From NCBI GenBank assembly GCA_029624735.1, contig JARSSM010000020.1:124001-188000 (forward strand): a DNA stretch of 64,000 bases, given 5' to 3'. The stretch's first letter is position 1, and each line of letters starts with the position of its first letter. Origin of the DNA: Defluviicoccus sp. Its GTDB lineage: Bacteria; Pseudomonadota; Alphaproteobacteria; Rhodospirillales; Defluviicoccaceae. The translations under genes and the position numbers were made by a program. The notes under the pieces were generated by a model. That model was not told the origin of the DNA. It ran no database searches and worked only from the letters and a program-made list of their open reading frames with translations. Positions 1,080 to 10,836 of this stretch are shown here, piece by piece.

Positions 1080-2018
1080 TTACGGCAATTCGGTGGCGTA
1101 GCTGGCCAACGGCGGGATCTCCTTGATCAGGCCGCGGCCCTTCAGGAACGCCGCAAACCGCTCATACCGATTGCGGTCAAGCGCCGCCGGACGCAGGGCG
1201 AAGCGCGCCAAGGTATCACGCCAGGCGCGGCGATTGAGTTCGTCATCAAGGTCGGGATGGGCGGCAGCGAAGGTGCGCCACCCCTCCTCGGGATGGTTGA
1301 TGAGCCACATCGTTGCGCGCTCGATCGCGTTAACAAAACGGCGCAACCGCGTATCCCCGGCACGCTCGCGCGCGGTGACAACGATCAGCTCATCGTAGGG
1401 CGGAACCCCCTCTTCCTCCGGGAAAAACGCCCGGCCCGGCGCGCCTTCGAGTGCCAGCTGGTTCAATTCGAAATTGCGAAAGGCGCCGATGACGGCATCG
1501 ACCTGACCCGAAAGCAGTGCTGGCGACAGGGCAAAGTTAACGTTGATCAAGGTCACGTCGGTTGCGGCGATTTTGTGGTTCCCCAACATGGTCGCGAGCA
1601 ACGCCTCCTCGAAGCCGCCGACCGAATAGCCAACCTTGCGGCCCTTGAGGTCGGCAATCGTGCGTACCGGCCCCTTGTCGAGCACGACGAGGGAAGCCAA
1701 TGGCGTCGCAATCATCGTCGCAACTCGCTGTAATGGCAAGCCTTGTGCGACCTGCAGGTGGAGCTGCGGCTGGTAGCTGATGGCGAGGTCGGCTTTGCCA
1801 GCCGCAACCAGCTTCGGCGGGTCGTTGGGATCGGCTGGTGCAATCAGCTCAACGTCAAGGTCCTCGTCGCGAAACAGGCCGCGCTCCTTGGCGATCACCA
1901 GCGGTGCGTGATCGGGATTGACGAACCAGTCGAGCATGATCGTAAGCCGCTCTTCGGCCGCGGCTGGCCGCGCGCAGAGAGCAAAGGCGACGAGAACAAG
2001 GGTCAGGATCGTGGGCAT
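1080..2018 (-). CDS. thiY: ThiY-like thiamine-precursor-binding protein of an ABC transporter
   Basis: A 312-residue periplasmic solute-binding protein of the NMT1/THI5-like family, which binds hydroxymethylpyrimidine or formylaminopyrimidine precursors of thiamine. It has a signal peptide ending near AAA-EERL and the family pattern LDWFVNPDHAPLVIAKERG at the mature N-terminus. It is the last gene of a three-gene operon (ATPase, permease, binding protein), 7 bp after the permease gene. The TPP riboswitch at the head of the operon is the strongest reason to assign thiamine-precursor uptake rather than taurine or nitrate, which use related proteins. Confidence 0.85.
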   Translation of the reverse strand: MPTILTLVLVAFALCARPAAAEERLTIMLDWFVNPDHAPLVIAKERGLFRDEDLDVELIAPADPNDPPKLVAAGKADLAISYQPQLHLQVAQGLPLQRVATMIATPLASLVVLDKGPVRTIADLKGRKVGYSVGGFEEALLATMLGNHKIAATDVTLINVNFALSPALLSGQVDAVIGAFRNFELNQLALEGAPGRAFFPEEEGVPPYDELIVVTARERAGDTRLRRFVNAIERATMWLINHPEEGWRTFAAAHPDLDDELNRRAWRDTLARFALRPAALDRNRYERFAAFLKGRGLIKEIPPLASYATELP

Positions 2019-2025
2019 GGAGGGG

Positions 2026-2817
2026 TCAGTCCTCTGCAGGGGAGCTTTCGGGTTGCCACGGCATCAGCCGCTTCAGCAACCGGTCGACGGCGAAGTAAAG
2101 CGCAACGGCGATTGCGCCCAAGGTCAGCAAGGCCGCGAACATCAGGTCGATCTGCATGCGCGCGTTGGCGTGCAGCATCAGGTAGCCGAGCCCGGCGCTG
2201 GCGCCGACCCACTCGCCGACGACCGCGCCGATTGGCGCCACTGCGGTGGCGACGCGAATGCCCGACGCGAGTGCCGGCAGGGCGGCTGGCGCGCGGATGT
2301 AGCGCAAGCTCGCCAGCCGGCTGGCGTCCATGCTGAGCGCCAAGTCGAGCCAACCGGGCTCGGTGCGGCGCAGGCCGTCGGAAAAGGCCGCCGTGACGGG
2401 GAAGTAGATGATTACCGCGGCCATCGCCACCTTCGAGGCCAGGCCATAGCCGAGCCACAGCACCAGCAGCGGTGCCAGCGCAAACACCGGCACCGCCTGG
2501 CTGACCACCAGCAGCGGCAACAGCCAGCGCCGCGCCGGGCGAAAGGCAACGATGAGCAGCGCAGATGCTGCTCCCAATCCGATGCCAAGCACGAGACCAA
2601 GCACGATTTCGGCGAACGTGAGCGCGGCATGGCGGCCGATGCTGGCGGCGTGCACGACCAGCGCCGTCATTACCCGCAGTGGGTCGGGCAGGATGTAGGG
2701 CGGCAGCGCCGTCGCCATGACCAGCGCCTGCCAAGCAGCGAGCAGGCCGAGGCCGATGACAAGGGCACGCGCGGGGCCGTGCAGGGCGCGGCTGGTCATC
2801 ATGAAGCGCCCGCTCAT
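2026..2817 (-). CDS. thiX: ThiX-like ABC transporter permease
   Basis: A 263-residue inner-membrane permease of the BPD_transp_1 (TauC/SsuC-like) type with about six membrane segments. The EAA-type coupling loop is recognisable around residues 165-200 (region with LDLALSMDASRLAS). Its ATG overlaps the TGA of the ATPase gene by 4 bp (ATGA), so the two are probably translationally coupled. With the riboswitch and ThiY it forms a thiamine-precursor importer. Confidence 0.85.
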   Translation of the reverse strand: MSGRFMMTSRALHGPARALVIGLGLLAAWQALVMATALPPYILPDPLRVMTALVVHAASIGRHAALTFAEIVLGLVLGIGLGAASALLIVAFRPARRWLLPLLVVSQAVPVFALAPLLVLWLGYGLASKVAMAAVIIYFPVTAAFSDGLRRTEPGWLDLALSMDASRLASLRYIRAPAALPALASGIRVATAVAPIGAVVGEWVGASAGLGYLMLHANARMQIDLMFAALLTLGAIAVALYFAVDRLLKRLMPWQPESSPAED

Positions 2818-3596
2818 GAATGCGCCGCCGCCAGCCGGCGCAACAGTTCGCCCTGCAGTGCCAGGACGCCCGGGTCATCGACCGGCCGCGGCGGATGCCC
2901 CGGAGCGTGCAGCGGCTCGCCCAGCCGCGCCGGCCGGCCGGCCATGACGAAGATCCGGTGCCCCAGGCGCAGCGCCTCCAGCGGATCGTGGGTGACGAGC
3001 AGCACCGTTCGCCCGCGCAACAGGGTCGCGGCGAGATCCTGCAAGCGGACCCGCGTAATGGCGTCGACCGCCGAGAACGGCTCATCCATCAGCACTACCG
3101 GCCGGTCCTCGAACAGGGTGCGGGCGAGTGCGGCGCGCTGGCGCATGCCACCCGAGAGCGCATCGGGGCGTAGACCGGCCGCATCCTGCATGCCAACGGC
3201 TTCGATCAGCGCATCGGCGCGCCCGCGCGCAGGAGCGTCGATCGCCTCCCCACGCAGACGCCGGCCCAGCAGCACGTTGTCGCGGACGGTAAGCCATGGC
3301 AACAGCAGGTCGCGCTGCGCCATGTAGGCGACGCGGCCGCGCAAGGGGTGGCCGTCATCGCAGGCAACGACGCCGGTCCCGATGGGCCGGGCTTGCCCGC
3401 GGATTCGGGTCGATTCCAGGATCAGCCGGATCAGCGAAGTCTTGCCGATGCCGGAAGGACCGAGGAGGCAGGTCCAGCTGCCGGCGGCAAGCGTGAGATC
3501 GAGGTCGCGAAAGAGGGTGGTCTTACCGAACGTGCACGTACCGCCGACAATGGCAACACTCACGCTTACAGCAGTCGCGGCACGGTCAACCAGCAT
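2814..3596 (-). CDS. thiZ: ThiZ-like ABC transporter ATP-binding protein
   Basis: A 260-residue ABC ATPase. Walker A is GPSGIGKTS (near residue 46), the signature is LSGGMRQR and Walker B is VLMDEPFSAVD. It is the first gene of the thi transport operon. Its ATG lies only about 10 bases beyond the 3' end of the TPP riboswitch, and the likely Shine-Dalgarno (GTGGGAC) touches the aptamer's closing stem. This points to ligand control of translation initiation more than to a terminator switch. Confidence 0.87.
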   Translation of the reverse strand: MLVDRAATAVSVSVAIVGGTCTFGKTTLFRDLDLTLAAGSWTCLLGPSGIGKTSLIRLILESTRIRGQARPIGTGVVACDDGHPLRGRVAYMAQRDLLLPWLTVRDNVLLGRRLRGEAIDAPARGRADALIEAVGMQDAAGLRPDALSGGMRQRAALARTLFEDRPVVLMDEPFSAVDAITRVRLQDLAATLLRGRTVLLVTHDPLEALRLGHRIFVMAGRPARLGEPLHAPGHPPRPVDDPGVLALQGELLRRLAAAHS

Positions 3597-3916: not shown

Positions 3917-6900
3917 TTACGGTTTTGCGGACAGCAGCGGGCGGATCGCGAGCGCTTCCTGGACGTAGGCGTCGAGCGCTGCCGCGTCCATCGCCGGCGG
4001 GGCATTCTCACCGGTTATGAGGGCAAACGCGCCGGCCGCGGGCGTTGCCGCCAAGACCTGGCCATGCTCCTCGCGCAATCCGGCCATGGCTTCGCGGTCG
4101 TCGCTCAGCGCCATGGTGGCGGCAAGTTCAAGGAGCATTGCGCTCCGATCGGCGCCTGAGTCGGCTGTGACGGCGGGCGGTGCCACGAGCCGTTCGAGAC
4201 TGGCTGCCGTTCCCGACCAGTCGGCCTTGCGGCGGAGGATGTCCGCGCGCATGCGATCGGCCTCGGCGTCGGGGTCGTTGCCGAGGAGAGCGAGCGCATC
4301 GCCGTCCCGGCCGAGGGCGATCAACGCTTCTGCCTCGACCCGCTTGCGTTGCCGCATCAGTCCGGCCGGAAGCGCGGCACTCGCGGAGCGCTGCAGGGTT
4401 GCGAGCGCTGCCGCAGCATTGCCGTTCATCTCTTGCGTCGTCGCAAGCTTGAGGCCGAGGCGCGCGCGCTCGACGCCCTCGGGCGCCTCATTGAGCTGGA
4501 TTTCGAGAACGCTCACGGCTTCCGGGAGCAGGTCGAGCTCGGTCAAACGGTCCGCCAGCCGCTCGGCCAGCTGGTGGCCGGCGGGGCCGGATGGAACCAG
4601 CTCGCGGAAATCGCTGAACAGCGCAACCGCCATCAGCGGCGGCACGCTGGCGGCTCGTTCGGAGAGGAAAAGGCCCTGAAACGCCTCGCTGATCTCGCGG
4701 TTGATGCCATTCGCTTCGGGAAGATCGGCAAGGTAAAGCGCCGCCTCCTTTAATGTCCGCAGTCCTGCTGCATAGGCGCCGGCCGCGAATTGCAGCTGCG
4801 CCAGCTCGCGCAAGATCTGCAGCTCGAAGCGATCGCCGCGCCAATTCGCACGAACGGCCTGAAGTTCCTTTGCCGCCGCCGTCGCGTCGATGTCGCCACG
4901 CTCGAACCGCAGGCGCGTGAGCGCATGCTGGGCACGCATGGCTGCGCCGCGCGAGGGGCTGTTGGCCGCCAGCGCCAGCAACCGCAGTGCGTCGGCAGGC
5001 CGGCCCTGGCGCGCTGCCAGCTGGCCCTTGAGGTAAGGAATCCAAGCCTGCTCGTGCACCGTGCTGGCGGCCTCGCCAAGCATGCCGATCAGCTTCTCCG
5101 CCGCTTCAAGGCGGCCCTGATCGAGCGCTGCCTCGGCAAGTGGCCGCGCGGCCGCGAAGCGCAACGGCTTCGGATAGGCCTCGATCAGGGACAGTGCCGG
5201 CTCGACGCGCTCGACCGCATCGGCGCTCTCAAGCCTGCCCGCCGATGCATCGGCAATCGTGCGCCACAGCCGCCCATCTTCGGTGGCCGCAACGGCAGTG
5301 CCGGCAAGATCCGCCTCAGCCTCATCGGTGCGGCCGAGCAGGACTGCAGCGGCGCCCTGCATGAGGCGGATATCGGCATCGCTGGTCGCCGCCGGACGTG
5401 CTTCGACGACCAGCGCCAGCGTGCCATAAGCTTCAGCGGCCAAGCCTTCGCTCAAGAAGAACGCTGCAAGGTCGAGGCGCGCCTGCTCGCGGGCAGGGCC
5501 GGCCGCCTCGGCAGTCGCCCGCTCCAACTGCCGCCGGCGCTCGCGCGTCGACTGCGTCGGCTCATCGACCGGTGTGCGAGGTTCAAGCCAGTACGGGCGT
5601 TTGTCGCCGCCTGCCGTTGCCGCGACCTCTGCGGCCGGAGGCTGGGCGCTTAGTTGCAGCCCGTTCGGACTTGTCAGCTCGATACCATGCTCGCTTTGCA
5701 GCACCCGCAAGCTGTCGGTACCGGGTTCGATGGCGATGCCCTGGCTGGTCGCGAGCACGCGAAGTTCCGGCAACACCTTCTCTTCGGCGACCCCGGCGCC
5801 GGGCGTGCGCACCGGCACGACGATCAGCGTGCGGCCGGTTTCCTCATCGGTGACGGCGAGCGGTGCAGCGGCCTCGCTCGCTTCAAAGGTCAGACGCGCG
5901 CGGTGTTTCTCATCGTGGGCGACCGCGACCGGGATCGGCTGCGCCGGAGCCGGTGCGACAGGCGCGAAGTCGAGAATCCAGGCGCCCTGATCCGAACGCA
6001 GGAGCGGCACGCGGTCCGATCGCAACCGCAGCCGCAGGACGGTTGCCGCGGCGTGGTCGACCCGGTCGATGCCGGTGACGGCGTTGCCCACATCGGCACT
6101 GAGATGGTTGGGATCGAGGTCGGTCGGCATGGGCTGATCGAAAACCAGCCATGCCGTTTGGCCGCGGCGAACCAATGCGGCTGCCGCGCCTTGCTCCCAC
6201 GCGAAACGCAGCTCCGGGCTATGCTTGCCTGCGGGCTTGGATGCTGCCGTCGCCGGCTTGGTCACAGTGGGCGCTGGCGGTGAAGCGTCGACCGGTGCCG
6301 CCGCCGCCTGGGGCGTTGCTGGCTTCGGTGCCGGCCGGACGTCAACGACGACCTTGGTGCCGGCGCGGCTGACGGCAACCTCGGCACCCGGCGCAAGCTG
6401 GAGGCGCGCGGACGTCTGGCCGCCCTCCACGTTGACACCAAGTCCCTGAACGAGTTTGAGCGGTCGCTTGTTGAGGGCAGAGGGATCGATCCGTGCCACG
6501 CGATCAAAAACGAGCGCGGCGCCTCCCTCGTGCTGCTCGATCCGGTAGCCGACTTCGTTCGGCCAGTCGAACACGACCCGGCTGTAGCCGGCATGGTCAG
6601 CGGCGCGTACACGGACGGCCGGTGCTTGGCTGCCGGCCGGCGCCGCGGCTGCGCTTGCAGGGTGATCGGGAGCAGGTGCGGGTTCAGCGGCTGCGCGTGG
6701 TTGCGCTTGCTTTTCAAAGAGATCGACGATCACCTTGTTGCCGTCGGTGTGCCCAATGACGCTTACGCCGGCAGCAAGCGGAAAGGTGACGCTGCGACCG
6801 TCGCCGGCGAGCGTCGCCACGCCAATCCAGCGGGAAAGACGCCGCACCGGGCCGAAGTCGGCATCGATCGGCCGTTCAAAGCGCAGCTGGAGGCGACCGC

Positions 6901-7156
6901 CAGCGGCTGTCGCCTCGAAGCCTACAGGATTGGGCCAAGTCATCACGAGGCGCGCGCCGCTGTCCTGGGGCACCGCCTCGACCGCCACCGCATCGGCCTG
7001 CGCCGGCGGCAGGTCCAGCACACCGGCGAGGGTGCCTGCGGCAACGGCAAGGATCAGCGCGCGCAGCCTTCGATGCCTCTGCCCCGACGGCGCTTCCCCT
7101 GGCCGTTGCGCCGACTGCCGATGCCGAGCCTTGAACCAGAGGAAGGGCAATCGCAT
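3917..7156 (-). CDS. Large periplasmic AMIN-like/TPR-like protein of the flagellar operon
   Basis: A 1079-residue protein. After about 32 basic residues comes a hydrophobic segment (residues 33-50) with a signal-peptidase-like PAQA-DA site near 55, so the bulk is probably periplasmic. The first half has three to four beta-rich repeats of about 90 residues (about 65-150, 185-275, 315-400, possibly 410-500). They resemble AMIN domains, share a TWPN/DWPN motif followed by VGF or VGY, and are joined by Ala/Pro linkers. The second half (about 540-1060) is alpha-helical, Ala/Leu-rich and TPR-like. It is the last gene of the fliL-fliM-DUF6468-motE-cheY operon, 31 bp after cheY. The fold calls are by eye and the function is unknown; cell-wall binding at the flagellar base or pole is inference. 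Confidence 0.75.
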   Translation of the reverse strand: MRLPFLWFKARHRQSAQRPGEAPSGQRHRRLRALILAVAAGTLAGVLDLPPAQADAVAVEAVPQDSGARLVMTWPNPVGFEATAAGGRLQLRFERPIDADFGPVRRLSRWIGVATLAGDGRSVTFPLAAGVSVIGHTDGNKVIVDLFEKQAQPRAAAEPAPAPDHPASAAAAPAGSQAPAVRVRAADHAGYSRVVFDWPNEVGYRIEQHEGGAALVFDRVARIDPSALNKRPLKLVQGLGVNVEGGQTSARLQLAPGAEVAVSRAGTKVVVDVRPAPKPATPQAAAAPVDASPPAPTVTKPATAASKPAGKHSPELRFAWEQGAAAALVRRGQTAWLVFDQPMPTDLDPNHLSADVGNAVTGIDRVDHAAATVLRLRLRSDRVPLLRSDQGAWILDFAPVAPAPAQPIPVAVAHDEKHRARLTFEASEAAAPLAVTDEETGRTLIVVPVRTPGAGVAEEKVLPELRVLATSQGIAIEPGTDSLRVLQSEHGIELTSPNGLQLSAQPPAAEVAATAGGDKRPYWLEPRTPVDEPTQSTRERRRQLERATAEAAGPAREQARLDLAAFFLSEGLAAEAYGTLALVVEARPAATSDADIRLMQGAAAVLLGRTDEAEADLAGTAVAATEDGRLWRTIADASAGRLESADAVERVEPALSLIEAYPKPLRFAAARPLAEAALDQGRLEAAEKLIGMLGEAASTVHEQAWIPYLKGQLAARQGRPADALRLLALAANSPSRGAAMRAQHALTRLRFERGDIDATAAAKELQAVRANWRGDRFELQILRELAQLQFAAGAYAAGLRTLKEAALYLADLPEANGINREISEAFQGLFLSERAASVPPLMAVALFSDFRELVPSGPAGHQLAERLADRLTELDLLPEAVSVLEIQLNEAPEGVERARLGLKLATTQEMNGNAAAALATLQRSASAALPAGLMRQRKRVEAEALIALGRDGDALALLGNDPDAEADRMRADILRRKADWSGTAASLERLVAPPAVTADSGADRSAMLLELAATMALSDDREAMAGLREEHGQVLAATPAAGAFALITGENAPPAMDAAALDAYVQEALAIRPLLSAKP

Positions 7157-7187: not shown

Positions 7188-7574
7188 TCAGAGCGGGCCG
7201 AGCACGCTCGAGAGTTTTGCCTTCAGCGTCTCGGCATTGAACGGCTTGACGATGTAGTTGGATACACCGGCTTGCTTGGCGGCGACAACGTTTTCTGCCT
7301 TGCTCTCGGCCGTGATCATGATGAACGGAATATGCTTGAACTTATCGCTCTTGCGCACCTCGCGCAGGAGCTGCAGACCGGTCATGGGCTCCATGTTCCA
7401 GTCCGAGATGATGAGTTGAATGTCCTTCTGCCCCAGCATATGCAACGCTTCTGTTCCGTCCATAGCTTCTTCGACGTTCGTGAAGTTGAGCTGACGGAGA
7501 AGATTGCGGATAATTCTCAGCATTGTCTTGTAGTCGTCAACGATGAGAATGCTCATATTGTAGTCGACGCTCAT
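7188..7574 (-). CDS. cheY: CheY-like single-domain response regulator
   Basis: A 128-residue receiver domain with no output domain. The acidic pair is D13-D14, the phospho-acceptor is D58, the switch residues are T88 and Y107, and K110 lies in VKPF. CheY-P binds FliM to bias motor rotation, and fliM is in the same operon. I start at 7574 because GAGGAG lies 9 bases upstream; an internal ATG at 7556 would also keep the whole domain. The 92-bp gap to motE is the longest gap inside this operon. Confidence 0.9.
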   Translation of the reverse strand: MSVDYNMSILIVDDYKTMLRIIRNLLRQLNFTNVEEAMDGTEALHMLGQKDIQLIISDWNMEPMTGLQLLREVRKSDKFKHIPFIMITAESKAENVVAAKQAGVSNYIVKPFNAETLKAKLSSVLGPL

Positions 7575-7666: not shown

Positions 7667-8440
7667 TCACGGTTGCTGCTTCTCTCCGTTTCTTGCCGAG
7701 CGGACGAGCGAGCGCTGGTGTGCCAGCTCCTCCGTTATATCTTTGGCGCGGCTGGGGCTCAGTTGGGCGAGAACAGGCGCCAGCTTGCGCTCCTTCATTC
7801 CTTCAGCAACCATTAGCAGCGTTTCCATTTCGAGCTCTTCAAAGATCTGAGCCGCGTCCTTAGGTTTGAGGTTTTCGTAGATCTTGATCAGGGACTCGAT
7901 TTGGCCCTTCTTCTGCTCATCGTAAGATTTCAGCAGTTTCTCCAGGGTCGTCTGCATTCCCTTCAGTTCATCGAGCTTCTGGCCGATCCGTTGCTCTGCC
8001 GCCCGCAGCACGATTTCGCGCCGTTCGATATCGTCGCTGCGCGCAGCGAGTGCTTCGCGGCGGCGCGCCAATTGCTGCAGGACTTCAACTTCCGACGGCG
8101 TTAACTCCGAGGTCGAGTGCCAGCTGTTGGCCTTGGCGAGGGTTGTGGGCTCCGCACTCGCCGTCTGTGGCGGCGGTGCCGCCGCGGCCGGATCGGCTGG
8201 CGGAGCTGCAGGCGTGGCCGCGGCTGCGGCAGTTGCCTCGTCCTTCTTCGGTTCTTGCTGTTCCGGCTTTTTTTGGGGCGCCGCGGCATGGCCAGCGGCC
8301 TCGGCAGGGGTCACCGTAAGGCTGCTGCGGAACACCTCGTTCATGCCGTGCCAGATCGCGCCGATCTTGACGCTCAGAAACACCGAAGCGACCAGCACGG
8401 TCAGCGGCAGGATGCGAAACCAGCGCAAGACAGACGGCAT
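7667..8440 (-). CDS. motE: MotE family flagellar motility protein
   Basis: A 257-residue protein with one N-terminal membrane anchor (about residues 10-27). A long Ala/Pro/Gln/Lys-rich linker follows (about 45-95), then a coiled coil (about 105-170). The C-terminal MgtE-N-like domain contains the stretch LKPKDAAQIFEEL. This layout matches MotE, a periplasmic chaperone of the stator component MotC in rhizobia (established for Sinorhizobium). No motA, motB or motC lies in the window. It follows the DUF6468 gene by 20 bp. Confidence 0.8.
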   Translation of the reverse strand: MPSVLRWFRILPLTVLVASVFLSVKIGAIWHGMNEVFRSSLTVTPAEAAGHAAAPQKKPEQQEPKKDEATAAAAATPAAPPADPAAAAPPPQTASAEPTTLAKANSWHSTSELTPSEVEVLQQLARRREALAARSDDIERREIVLRAAEQRIGQKLDELKGMQTTLEKLLKSYDEQKKGQIESLIKIYENLKPKDAAQIFEELEMETLLMVAEGMKERKLAPVLAQLSPSRAKDITEELAHQRSLVRSARNGEKQQP

Positions 8441-8460: not shown

Positions 8461-9051
8461 TCATCGGTTGAGCCCCTGCATGCCGAGCGCTGCGAGGAGG
8501 TTCTTTTCCGCTTCTGAGCGAATGCGTGCGTCGCGCGCGGCGGGTGCGGCTGGCTTGCTCACGCGGGCTTTCCGGCTGCTGGCTGTTCCGCCCTCGGCCG
8601 TCTGCGGGCGGACCCGCGTGCCTTCAGCCGCGGCAGCCGCCAGCAAGGCGGCAGCAGTGTTCATCGCTGCAGCAGGCGAGGGGGGCGCAGCAGCATTCGC
8701 CGCTGCTGGCCGCGCACCTGCGAGCGGCGCGGGTCCTGCAGAGGCACGTCCGCGTACACCGGCTTCGAGCCGGTCGGCCGTGGCGTCGCCGCGCTCGATA
8801 AGATAGCGCAGGTCGTCGGTCAGCGAATTTGCCTTCGCAAGCTGCTCTTGCAGGTTCTCGGATGAGATCTTGAGCGTGCTGATCCCTTCCTCGGCCCGCC
8901 CGGTTGCGTCACGAAAGGTGTTTGCCAGCAGCTCCAGCTGCTGCCGATGCTGGCGCATTTCGGACAAGCGCCGGTTCAGTACCGCGGCCATTCCGATGGT
9001 GCCGCTCATCAGCAGTGCGAGAACAACATCGAGGGCAAGCGTCCATGTCAT
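8461..9051 (-). CDS. DUF6468 domain protein of the flagellar operon
   Basis: A 196-residue protein with an N-terminal membrane helix (residues 4-22). A coiled-coil-forming segment follows (about 25-90), and then a low-complexity Ala-rich tail. Proteins of this kind are found between fliM and motE in alphaproteobacterial flagellar operons; the role is unknown. The frame is open further upstream, but the ATG at 9051 overlaps the fliM stop as ATGA, which fits the neighbouring gene junctions and puts the membrane helix at the N-terminus. Confidence 0.75.
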   Translation of the reverse strand: MTWTLALDVVLALLMSGTIGMAAVLNRRLSEMRQHRQQLELLANTFRDATGRAEEGISTLKISSENLQEQLAKANSLTDDLRYLIERGDATADRLEAGVRGRASAGPAPLAGARPAAANAAAPPSPAAAMNTAAALLAAAAAEGTRVRPQTAEGGTASSRKARVSKPAAPAARDARIRSEAEKNLLAALGMQGLNR

Positions 9052-10190
9052 GGGCTGCGTCTCCGGCTCTTGCGCTCGACTGGGGCCTCGATCTGGGCAG
9101 CCAGCCGGCTGCCCTGGCGCCCCATCTGCGCGATGTACATCGGCACCCCGCCGCAGCGCAGATCGATCAGGCTGTCGGGGCTGGCATCGAACATAATCCG
9201 GTTGCCGACCTTGAGCTCGAAGACGTCCTTGAGCGTCAGCACCGTCTCGTCGAGGACGGCCATGAGTTCGACCTGCGTATTCCACAGCTCGGTCGCCAGG
9301 TGGGTTTCCCAGATCGAGTCGCGGCCGAACTTCTCGCCCATGAACATCTGCAGCAGGAGTTCGCGCACGGGCTCAAGCGTCGCGTAGGGAATGCACAGAT
9401 CGAAATGCCCGCCGCGGTCTTCCATGTCGATGCGCAAGCGGGCGAGGATGGCTGCGTTCGACGGCCGTGAGATGGTTGCAAAACGCGGATTGGTCTCCAG
9501 CCGGTCGAAGCGGAACGTCACCGGGCTCAAGGGCTCGAATGCGGCGCCCAGGTCGGTGAGGATGACATGAACCATCCGTTCCACCAGGCTGCGCTCGATC
9601 GTGGTGTAGGGACGGCCTTCGATGCGCATCGCCGCCGTTCCGCGCCGGCCGCCGAGGAGAACGTCAACAACCGAATAGATCAGGGCGGAATCGACGGTGA
9701 TAAGGATGTAGTTGTCCCATTGCTCGGCGCGGATCACGCTCAGCATTGCCGGCAGCGGCACGCCGTTGAGGTAATCGCCGAAGCGGACCGACGCGATGCT
9801 GTCGAGCGAGACCTCAACATTGTCGGAGGTGAAATTGCGCATGCTGGTCGACATCAGCCGCACGAGACGGTCGAAAACGACCTCCAGCATCGGGAGCCGC
9901 TCGTAAGAGACGAGCGCACTATTGATGATCGCCTGGATGCCGGACTGCCCGAACGCGCCGCCCTCGTGCTCCTCCTCGAAGCCGAGCAGGCTGTCGATCT
10001 CGTTCTGGCTGAGAACGCGTGTGGGCGGCGGGCTCGCGGGCGCCGCTGGCATCATTTCATCTGCGCCGACGCCGCTGTCGAGTTCCGCAGTCATCGCCTC
10101 CCAGGCCGCGGCAAGATCTTCTTGATCGTCACTCGCGGGAGTGCCGCCGCCATCGGGGCTATTGGGGTCGGACTGGCTCGGGGGCACCAC
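9048..10190 (-). CDS. fliM: Flagellar motor switch protein FliM
   Basis: A 380-residue C-ring protein. The CheY-P-binding motif LSQNEIDSLL lies at about residues 58-67, later than the usual N-terminus because an acidic, Ser/Pro-rich extension of about 55 residues precedes it. The middle CheC-like domain and C-terminal SpoA domain follow (IRAEQWDNYILITVDSALIY is in the middle domain). It starts at GTG (10190) with GAGGTC upstream. It is the second gene of the operon, 25 bp after fliL. FliN and FliG are not in the window. Confidence 0.93.
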   Translation of the reverse strand: MVPPSQSDPNSPDGGGTPASDDQEDLAAAWEAMTAELDSGVGADEMMPAAPASPPPTRVLSQNEIDSLLGFEEEHEGGAFGQSGIQAIINSALVSYERLPMLEVVFDRLVRLMSTSMRNFTSDNVEVSLDSIASVRFGDYLNGVPLPAMLSVIRAEQWDNYILITVDSALIYSVVDVLLGGRRGTAAMRIEGRPYTTIERSLVERMVHVILTDLGAAFEPLSPVTFRFDRLETNPRFATISRPSNAAILARLRIDMEDRGGHFDLCIPYATLEPVRELLLQMFMGEKFGRDSIWETHLATELWNTQVELMAVLDETVLTLKDVFELKVGNRIMFDASPDSLIDLRCGGVPMYIAQMGRQGSRLAAQIEAPVERKSRRRSP

Positions 10191-10215: not shown

Positions 10216-10743
10216 CTACTGCATCAGGAGCTCGGAGAAGAGCACGTCGGTGATCGGATTGGGTGCCACGGCCGCCTGGATCCGCCGCAACAGCTCCTCG
10301 CGCAGGCGCACGCTGCCCGCCGATCCGTGCAGTTCCTCCGGCCGCAGCTCGCGCAAGTAAGTCTGGCAATAGTCGACGATCCGCGGCATCGCTTCTTGGA
10401 TCCGCGCAGCCGTCGTCTCGGCCGGAAGCTCGAGGGTCACCCGCAGTTTGAGAAAGATCGGCCGCGATCGGCCGGTGTTCAGGCTCACCATCAGATCGGG
10501 AAGCGAAAAGTAACTGGTGACCGCTGCTGCCGCTTGCCCGTGACCGTCCGCAGACTCTTCTTCTCCACCTCCAAGGAGGGGATCGAGCAGACCAGCGAAG
10601 TAGGCTCCGGCGCCACCGGCGATCAAGCCGACCACGACGGCAACGAGCGCGATGAGCGGCAGACGCGACTTGGCGCGTTTGACCGGCGGACTGTTCGCGC
10701 CTTCCTCTGCGTCGGCGGGATCGGGCTGCTTGTTGTCGGCCAT
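10216..10743 (-). CDS. fliL: Flagellar basal body-associated protein FliL
   Basis: A 175-residue single-pass inner-membrane protein. It has a cytoplasmic tail, a membrane helix at about residues 28-50, and a periplasmic FliL domain with YFSLPDLMVSLNT and a C-terminal ITDVLFSELLMQ. FliL surrounds and supports the stator units. It is the first gene of the operon that continues through fliM to 3917. The ATG at 10743 gives the usual family length. A possible sigma-54 promoter lies about 95 bp upstream. Confidence 0.92.
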   Translation of the reverse strand: MADNKQPDPADAEEGANSPPVKRAKSRLPLIALVAVVVGLIAGGAGAYFAGLLDPLLGGGEEESADGHGQAAAAVTSYFSLPDLMVSLNTGRSRPIFLKLRVTLELPAETTAARIQEAMPRIVDYCQTYLRELRPEELHGSAGSVRLREELLRRIQAAVAPNPITDVLFSELLMQ

Positions 10744-10836
10744 CTGCGCGTCATCGCACTCTGGGGCTGCATGGGGCTGATGGGCAAACACACTCCGCCC
10801 GACCCCAACTGTACGGGCCAGCCGTTAACAAGCCGT

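Follow-up and report, generated by a model that had tools for sequence, protein, structure and literature searches.

A three-repeat AMIN-TPR protein encoded at the end of a flagellar operon in Defluviicoccus is a probable stator-scaffold protein

The locus studied here raises the question of what a 1079 aa protein contributes to the flagellum with whose genes it is encoded, given that look-ups of its sequence in Pfam, NCBIfam and PDB revealed no family above cut-off. A preliminary description of this DNA had suggested that the protein could anchor the motor or mark the pole, and had named no assigned function. Analysis of its gene order, predicted structure and distribution indicates that it is very likely an alphaproteobacterial stator-scaffold protein of the MotK/FssB (CC_2058)/PflA kind, a spoke of the E-ring which anchors or recruits stators.

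The flagellar operon and its last gene

The analysed window is a stretch of 64,000 nucleotides from a contig of Defluviicoccus sp. (JARSSM010000020.1), and all window features described below lie on its reverse strand. Pfam assignments identified fliL (10216..10791; PF03748: 3.6e-17), fliM (9048..10190; PF02154: 1e-63), a gene for a DUF6468 membrane protein (about 8461..9051; PF20072: 7.9e-16), motE (7667..8440; FlbB/FlgY family, E-ring protein; MgtE_N: 1.6e-6) and a cheY-like response regulator consisting of a receiver domain only (7188..7574). They are followed by the open reading frame of the AMIN-TPR protein (3917..7156), and the gaps between all six genes are short or the genes overlap. 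The window motE also matched the NCBIfam model collar_FlbB (1.8e-6), under the cut-off of that model; the motE product is the likely binding partner of the AMIN-TPR protein. Directly downstream of the AMIN-TPR gene, at 1080-3596, lie genes for the NMT1/THI5-like substrate-binding protein, the permease and the ATPase of an ABC transporter. As this transporter has no tie to motility, the AMIN-TPR gene closes the flagellar run, which confirms how the preliminary description had placed the 1079-residue frame. A scan for terminators 3' of the gene found none on the gene's strand, and a search for the CtrA-type motif (TTAA-N7-TTAA) near the operon start gave no match.

The reading frame is more than a chance occurrence, since an open reading frame with 93% identity over its full length is present in a second genome (contig DF3PA_Contig_7, in whose title DF3 probably denotes a Defluviicoccus) and orthologs with conserved reading frames are found across the Alphaproteobacteria. 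A contig scan with the single protein as query returned one near-identical contig and nothing else.

Residues 1-54 (6995..7156) resemble a Sec-type signal region, read by eye from the sequence, with the basic stretch RHRRLR, the hydrophobic segment LRALILAVAAGTLAGVL and an AQA-D cleavage-like site. The n-region is long and the start codon putative; residues 27-45 form a helix in the AlphaFold2 model at low confidence. This signal-like N-terminus points to a probable export of the protein to the periplasm, where the preliminary description had also put it.

Domain topology of the AMIN-TPR protein

The structure of the whole protein was predicted with AlphaFold2 from an alignment of 56 orthologs, and that of the N-terminal half from an alignment of its own (mean pLDDT 83 and 87, respectively). 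The N-terminal half displayed three AMIN-like repeats, D1 (residues 55-148; 6713..6994), D2 (residues 180-275; 6332..6619) and the diverged D3 (residues 315-398; 5963..6214). HHalign comparisons gave probabilities of 99.8% for D1 with D2, 96.7% for D3 with D1 and 98.2% for D3 with D2. The repeats are joined by Ala/Pro-rich linkers of low pLDDT between D1 and D2 (residues 151-178; 6623..6706) and between D2 and D3 (residues 280-312; 6221..6319). A further beta domain, D4 (residues 410-495; 5672..5929), showed no similarity to D1-D3 in HHalign (<1%). Of the "three to four repeats" that had been described, three are thus homologous and the fourth is an unrelated domain; a reading as four identical repeats was dropped for the same reason. 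In the orthologs the repeats share the motif R-x-V-F-D-W-P-x-x-V-x-Y, which stands out in D1 and D2 but is less pronounced in D3.

A VIA-align search with the N-terminal half detected five AMIN structures (three of PilQ, AmiC (4bin) and a Synechocystis structure (5h3k)) with Z-scores of 12.1-13.6, whereas all others reached at most 7.5. The part matched by these structures is D2, which aligned to AmiC with a Z-score of 13.4 and an rmsd of 2.9 over 106 residues, and to PilQ with Z-scores of 12-13.6. The likeness to PilQ and AmiC concerns the fold of D2; in contrast to them, the AMIN-TPR protein has no amidase or secretin domain after its AMIN repeats. Pfam searches found AMIN-like in 38/55 and AMIN in 10/55 orthologs, with values as good as 9.2e-9; the window protein itself scored 16.4-18.5 bits against PF24837, under the cut-off of 27. 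D2 is accordingly best modelled as an AMIN fold, and D1 and D3 are predicted to share it by homology to D2.

The C-terminal half (residues 537-1076; 3929..5548) was modelled with high pLDDT as helices only, arranged in a TPR-like superhelix, and is the most conserved part of the family. It matched a BamD TPR profile (E 1.6e-5), and fold searches with the model were filled by TPR superhelix proteins. The linkers and the helical half that had been described from the letters were hence recovered in the model, and structure prediction and fold searches agree on both the AMIN and the TPR folds. When the whole model was compared with 350,542 chains in Foldseek, the top match was 9hmf_K of the C. jejuni flagellar periplasmic scaffold (E 5.2e-8), a chain assigned to PflA from its length. 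The TM-score of this match is just 0.14-0.18 and generic TPR proteins follow with nearly equal E-values, so that we take the match to the Campylobacter scaffold as supporting evidence only. PDB sequence and profile searches revealed no sequence similarity between the AMIN-TPR protein and PflA.

D4 and the TPR part were present in 56/56 proteins surveyed. The number of AMIN repeats varies among them: 42 proteins have three, 11 have two, 2 have four, and a truncated sequence has one. Three repeats, compared with one in MotK, are the sole notable feature of the Defluviicoccus protein, and yet they are the usual form among its orthologs.

Distribution and gene order

The distribution of the family was analysed in 289 genomes sampled evenly across the Alphaproteobacteria. 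The AMIN-TPR family was found in 146/160 FliM-positive and 7/129 FliM-negative genomes, leaving 14 genomes with FliM alone and 122 with neither (Fisher 1.6e-55, phylogeny ignored). Where the AMIN-TPR gene and fliM share a contig, they are at most 10.4 kb apart in 101 of 102 genomes. The order fliL>fliM>DUF6468>motE>(cheY)>homolog, divergent from flgF-flgG-flgA-flgH, was conserved in all of 20 loci from different families, with motE adjoining the homolog or standing one gene off in each and DUF6468 detected in 19. The synteny with motE and fliM that had been proposed as a check thus holds in these loci. Between motE and the homolog, cheY is optional, occurring in 11/20 of them. DUF6468, encoded between fliM and motE, was detected in 149/289 genomes of the class and, among 14 control genomes, in Caulobacter alone; by gene order the protein is probably PflI.

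Several of the 14 genomes scored as FliM-only could be followed individually. At least two have loci cut by contig ends (G195, G337), and another (G115) encodes a 696 aa homolog directly downstream of fliL-fliM-motE. Four genomes (G067, G162, G208, G270) possess another flagellar system, and their fetched loci lack a MotE-type gene; the AMIN-TPR protein thus tracks the usual alphaproteobacterial flagellum and not every flagellum. The open reading frames after motB in one further genome (G071) included nothing MotC-like. In some small-genome Alphaproteobacteria (loci L089, L090, L091, L092), a different flagellar system was marked by a divergent FliM, a MotB with a Cys-Pro-rich beginning (CPKCPPxGAPAWMATFADMATLLMAFF) and the lack of a MotE-type gene among the loci fetched.

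Profile searches detected homologs in named genomes as well. In Azospirillum sp. B510 the homolog (AZL_RS30505, 778 aa; L105:6542-8878) lies directly before motA-motB in a plasmid-borne flagellar cluster, a neighbourhood which is independent evidence of a stator-related role. This homolog stands away from motE, and scaffold and stator genes can accordingly travel together. The roseobacter Marinovum algicola has a homolog of 617 aa (MALG_04541, E 4e-24; L104:7571-9424) in its flagellar cluster between flgE and flgF; it comprises the TPR part only, with no AMIN repeat of the D1-D3 type detected. Plasmids of Komagataeibacter, Indioceanicola and Sphingobium carry homologs too.

Known relatives and the probable role in the motor

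Proteins of the same kind have been described since 2021-2024, and the earlier statement that no function is assigned was wrong in this respect. We linked the AMIN-TPR protein to MotK, FssB and MotC by architecture, gene order and published descriptions and not by sequence alignment. In Cereibacter sphaeroides, the periplasmic protein MotK combines a single AMIN-like domain with TPR-like helices; it is needed for rotation and not for assembly of the flagellum and binds MotE and MotB2 (PMC10954123). It shares with the AMIN-TPR protein the N-terminal position of the AMIN-like domain, proline-rich linkers and a gene near fliL-pflI-motE. MotK, which belongs to Fla2, measures 652 aa and is encoded after motA, whereas the Defluviicoccus protein is 1079 aa long, with three AMIN repeats, the additional D4 and a gene after motE-cheY.

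CC_2058 of Caulobacter crescentus has been named as a distant homolog of MotK (PMC10954123) and is identical with fssB, the deletion of which leaves filaments in place but abolishes swimming and stator-dependent holdfast signalling (PMC7885107). FssB has a Sec signal, of which the AMIN-TPR protein has a putative counterpart, and like that protein an AMIN-like N-terminus and a TPR region (PMC10954123, PMC7885107). Its gene adjoins the motE homolog CC_2059, similar to the arrangement in the window, and its loss results in paralysed flagella. MotC of Sinorhizobium meliloti is likewise a periplasmic TPR protein that works with MotE and is needed for rotation (PMC13023049); it is set apart by its description, as no AMIN domain has been reported for it and its gene follows motB.

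In the literature, MotE, FlgY and FlbB are treated together as proteins of the E-ring, with MotK, MotC, CC_2058 and PflA as their TPR spokes (PMC13023049, PMC11870540). In Campylobacter, the PflA spokes hold the PflB rim, which places 17 stators (PMC12222027). PflA of C. jejuni is a motor scaffold spoke next to the E-ring protein FlgY and resembles the AMIN-TPR protein in its N-terminal beta-sandwich, linker, long TPR superhelix and, probably, periplasmic site. It differs in having a single beta-sandwich, which together with the linker binds PflB and not peptidoglycan.

The predicted folds, the flagellar distribution, the fixed gene order with motE and the homolog beside motA-motB support the reading as a stator scaffold. 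The C-terminal TPR superhelix would most likely form a radial spoke docked on the E-ring of the operon partner MotE. The N-terminal AMIN repeats on their flexible Ala/Pro linkers may reach outward and upward and grip the peptidoglycan, and spoke and AMIN assembly would, together with FliL, position or activate the MotA/MotB stators around the rotor. For the AMIN-TPR protein itself, the place as a spoke, the docking on MotE and the grip on the peptidoglycan are inferred. The suggestion that the protein could anchor the motor came close to this role, which would however consist in anchoring or recruiting the stators.

The other part of that suggestion, a mark of the pole, is not supported. A polar landmark or positioning factor would sense the state of the polar cell wall through its AMIN repeats and place the flagellum there. 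AMIN domains do direct several envelope complexes to their sites (de Souza et al. 2008, cited in PMC10954123), the neighbouring DUF6468 gene matches by gene order pflI, a positioning factor in Caulobacter, and MotK is found at the flagellated pole (PMC10954123). But mutants of MotK and FssB build flagella which do not rotate (PMC10954123, PMC7885107), and the polar localization of MotK depends on MotA2/MotB2 (PMC10954123), so that the motor determines the site of MotK and not the reverse. The plasmid-borne Azospirillum homolog beside motA-motB also argues against a landmark, and we regard this role as improbable.

Very improbable is a role in which the AMIN-TPR protein and MotE protect each other, the former helping MotE to fold or stay stable without itself being built into the running motor. 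MotE and MotC/MotK indeed stabilise each other in S. meliloti and C. sphaeroides, and the motE neighbourhood is invariant; however, both MotK and MotE are situated at the motor and MotK binds MotB2 (PMC10954123), the PflA spoke can be seen in Campylobacter (PMC12222027), and a chaperone has no need of three repeats of a wall-binding type. Scarcely credible is a signalling part through which the neighbouring CheY-like protein, or the sensing of surfaces, would act on motor output, as suggested by the cheY next to the gene in the window and the need for FssB in stator-dependent holdfast signalling, since cheY is present in just 11 of the 20 syntenic loci, CheY is cytoplasmic while the AMIN-TPR protein is probably exported, and the signalling phenotype of FssB is a consequence of lost stator activity (PMC7885107).

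Within the stator-scaffold reading, a tentative and rather doubtful extension is that in most Alphaproteobacteria chains of two to four AMIN domains anchor PflA-like spokes straight to the peptidoglycan, replacing the PflB rim; the number of AMIN domains could then set the radius of the stator ring or its load-bearing.

The AMIN-TPR protein is very probably a further example of a known motor part, of a kind described in 2021-2026. The present analysis adds how widely it is conserved, its architecture of three AMIN repeats and a D4 distinct from them, and the link to motA-motB in Azospirillum. A large "hypothetical protein" of most flagellated Alphaproteobacteria sampled thus receives a name and a testable role. 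Gene order ties the tandem-AMIN form to the E-ring partner MotE, and the Azospirillum homolog ties it to the stator genes, which supports the published view that the E-ring and its TPR spokes are an ancient component of the flagellar motor.
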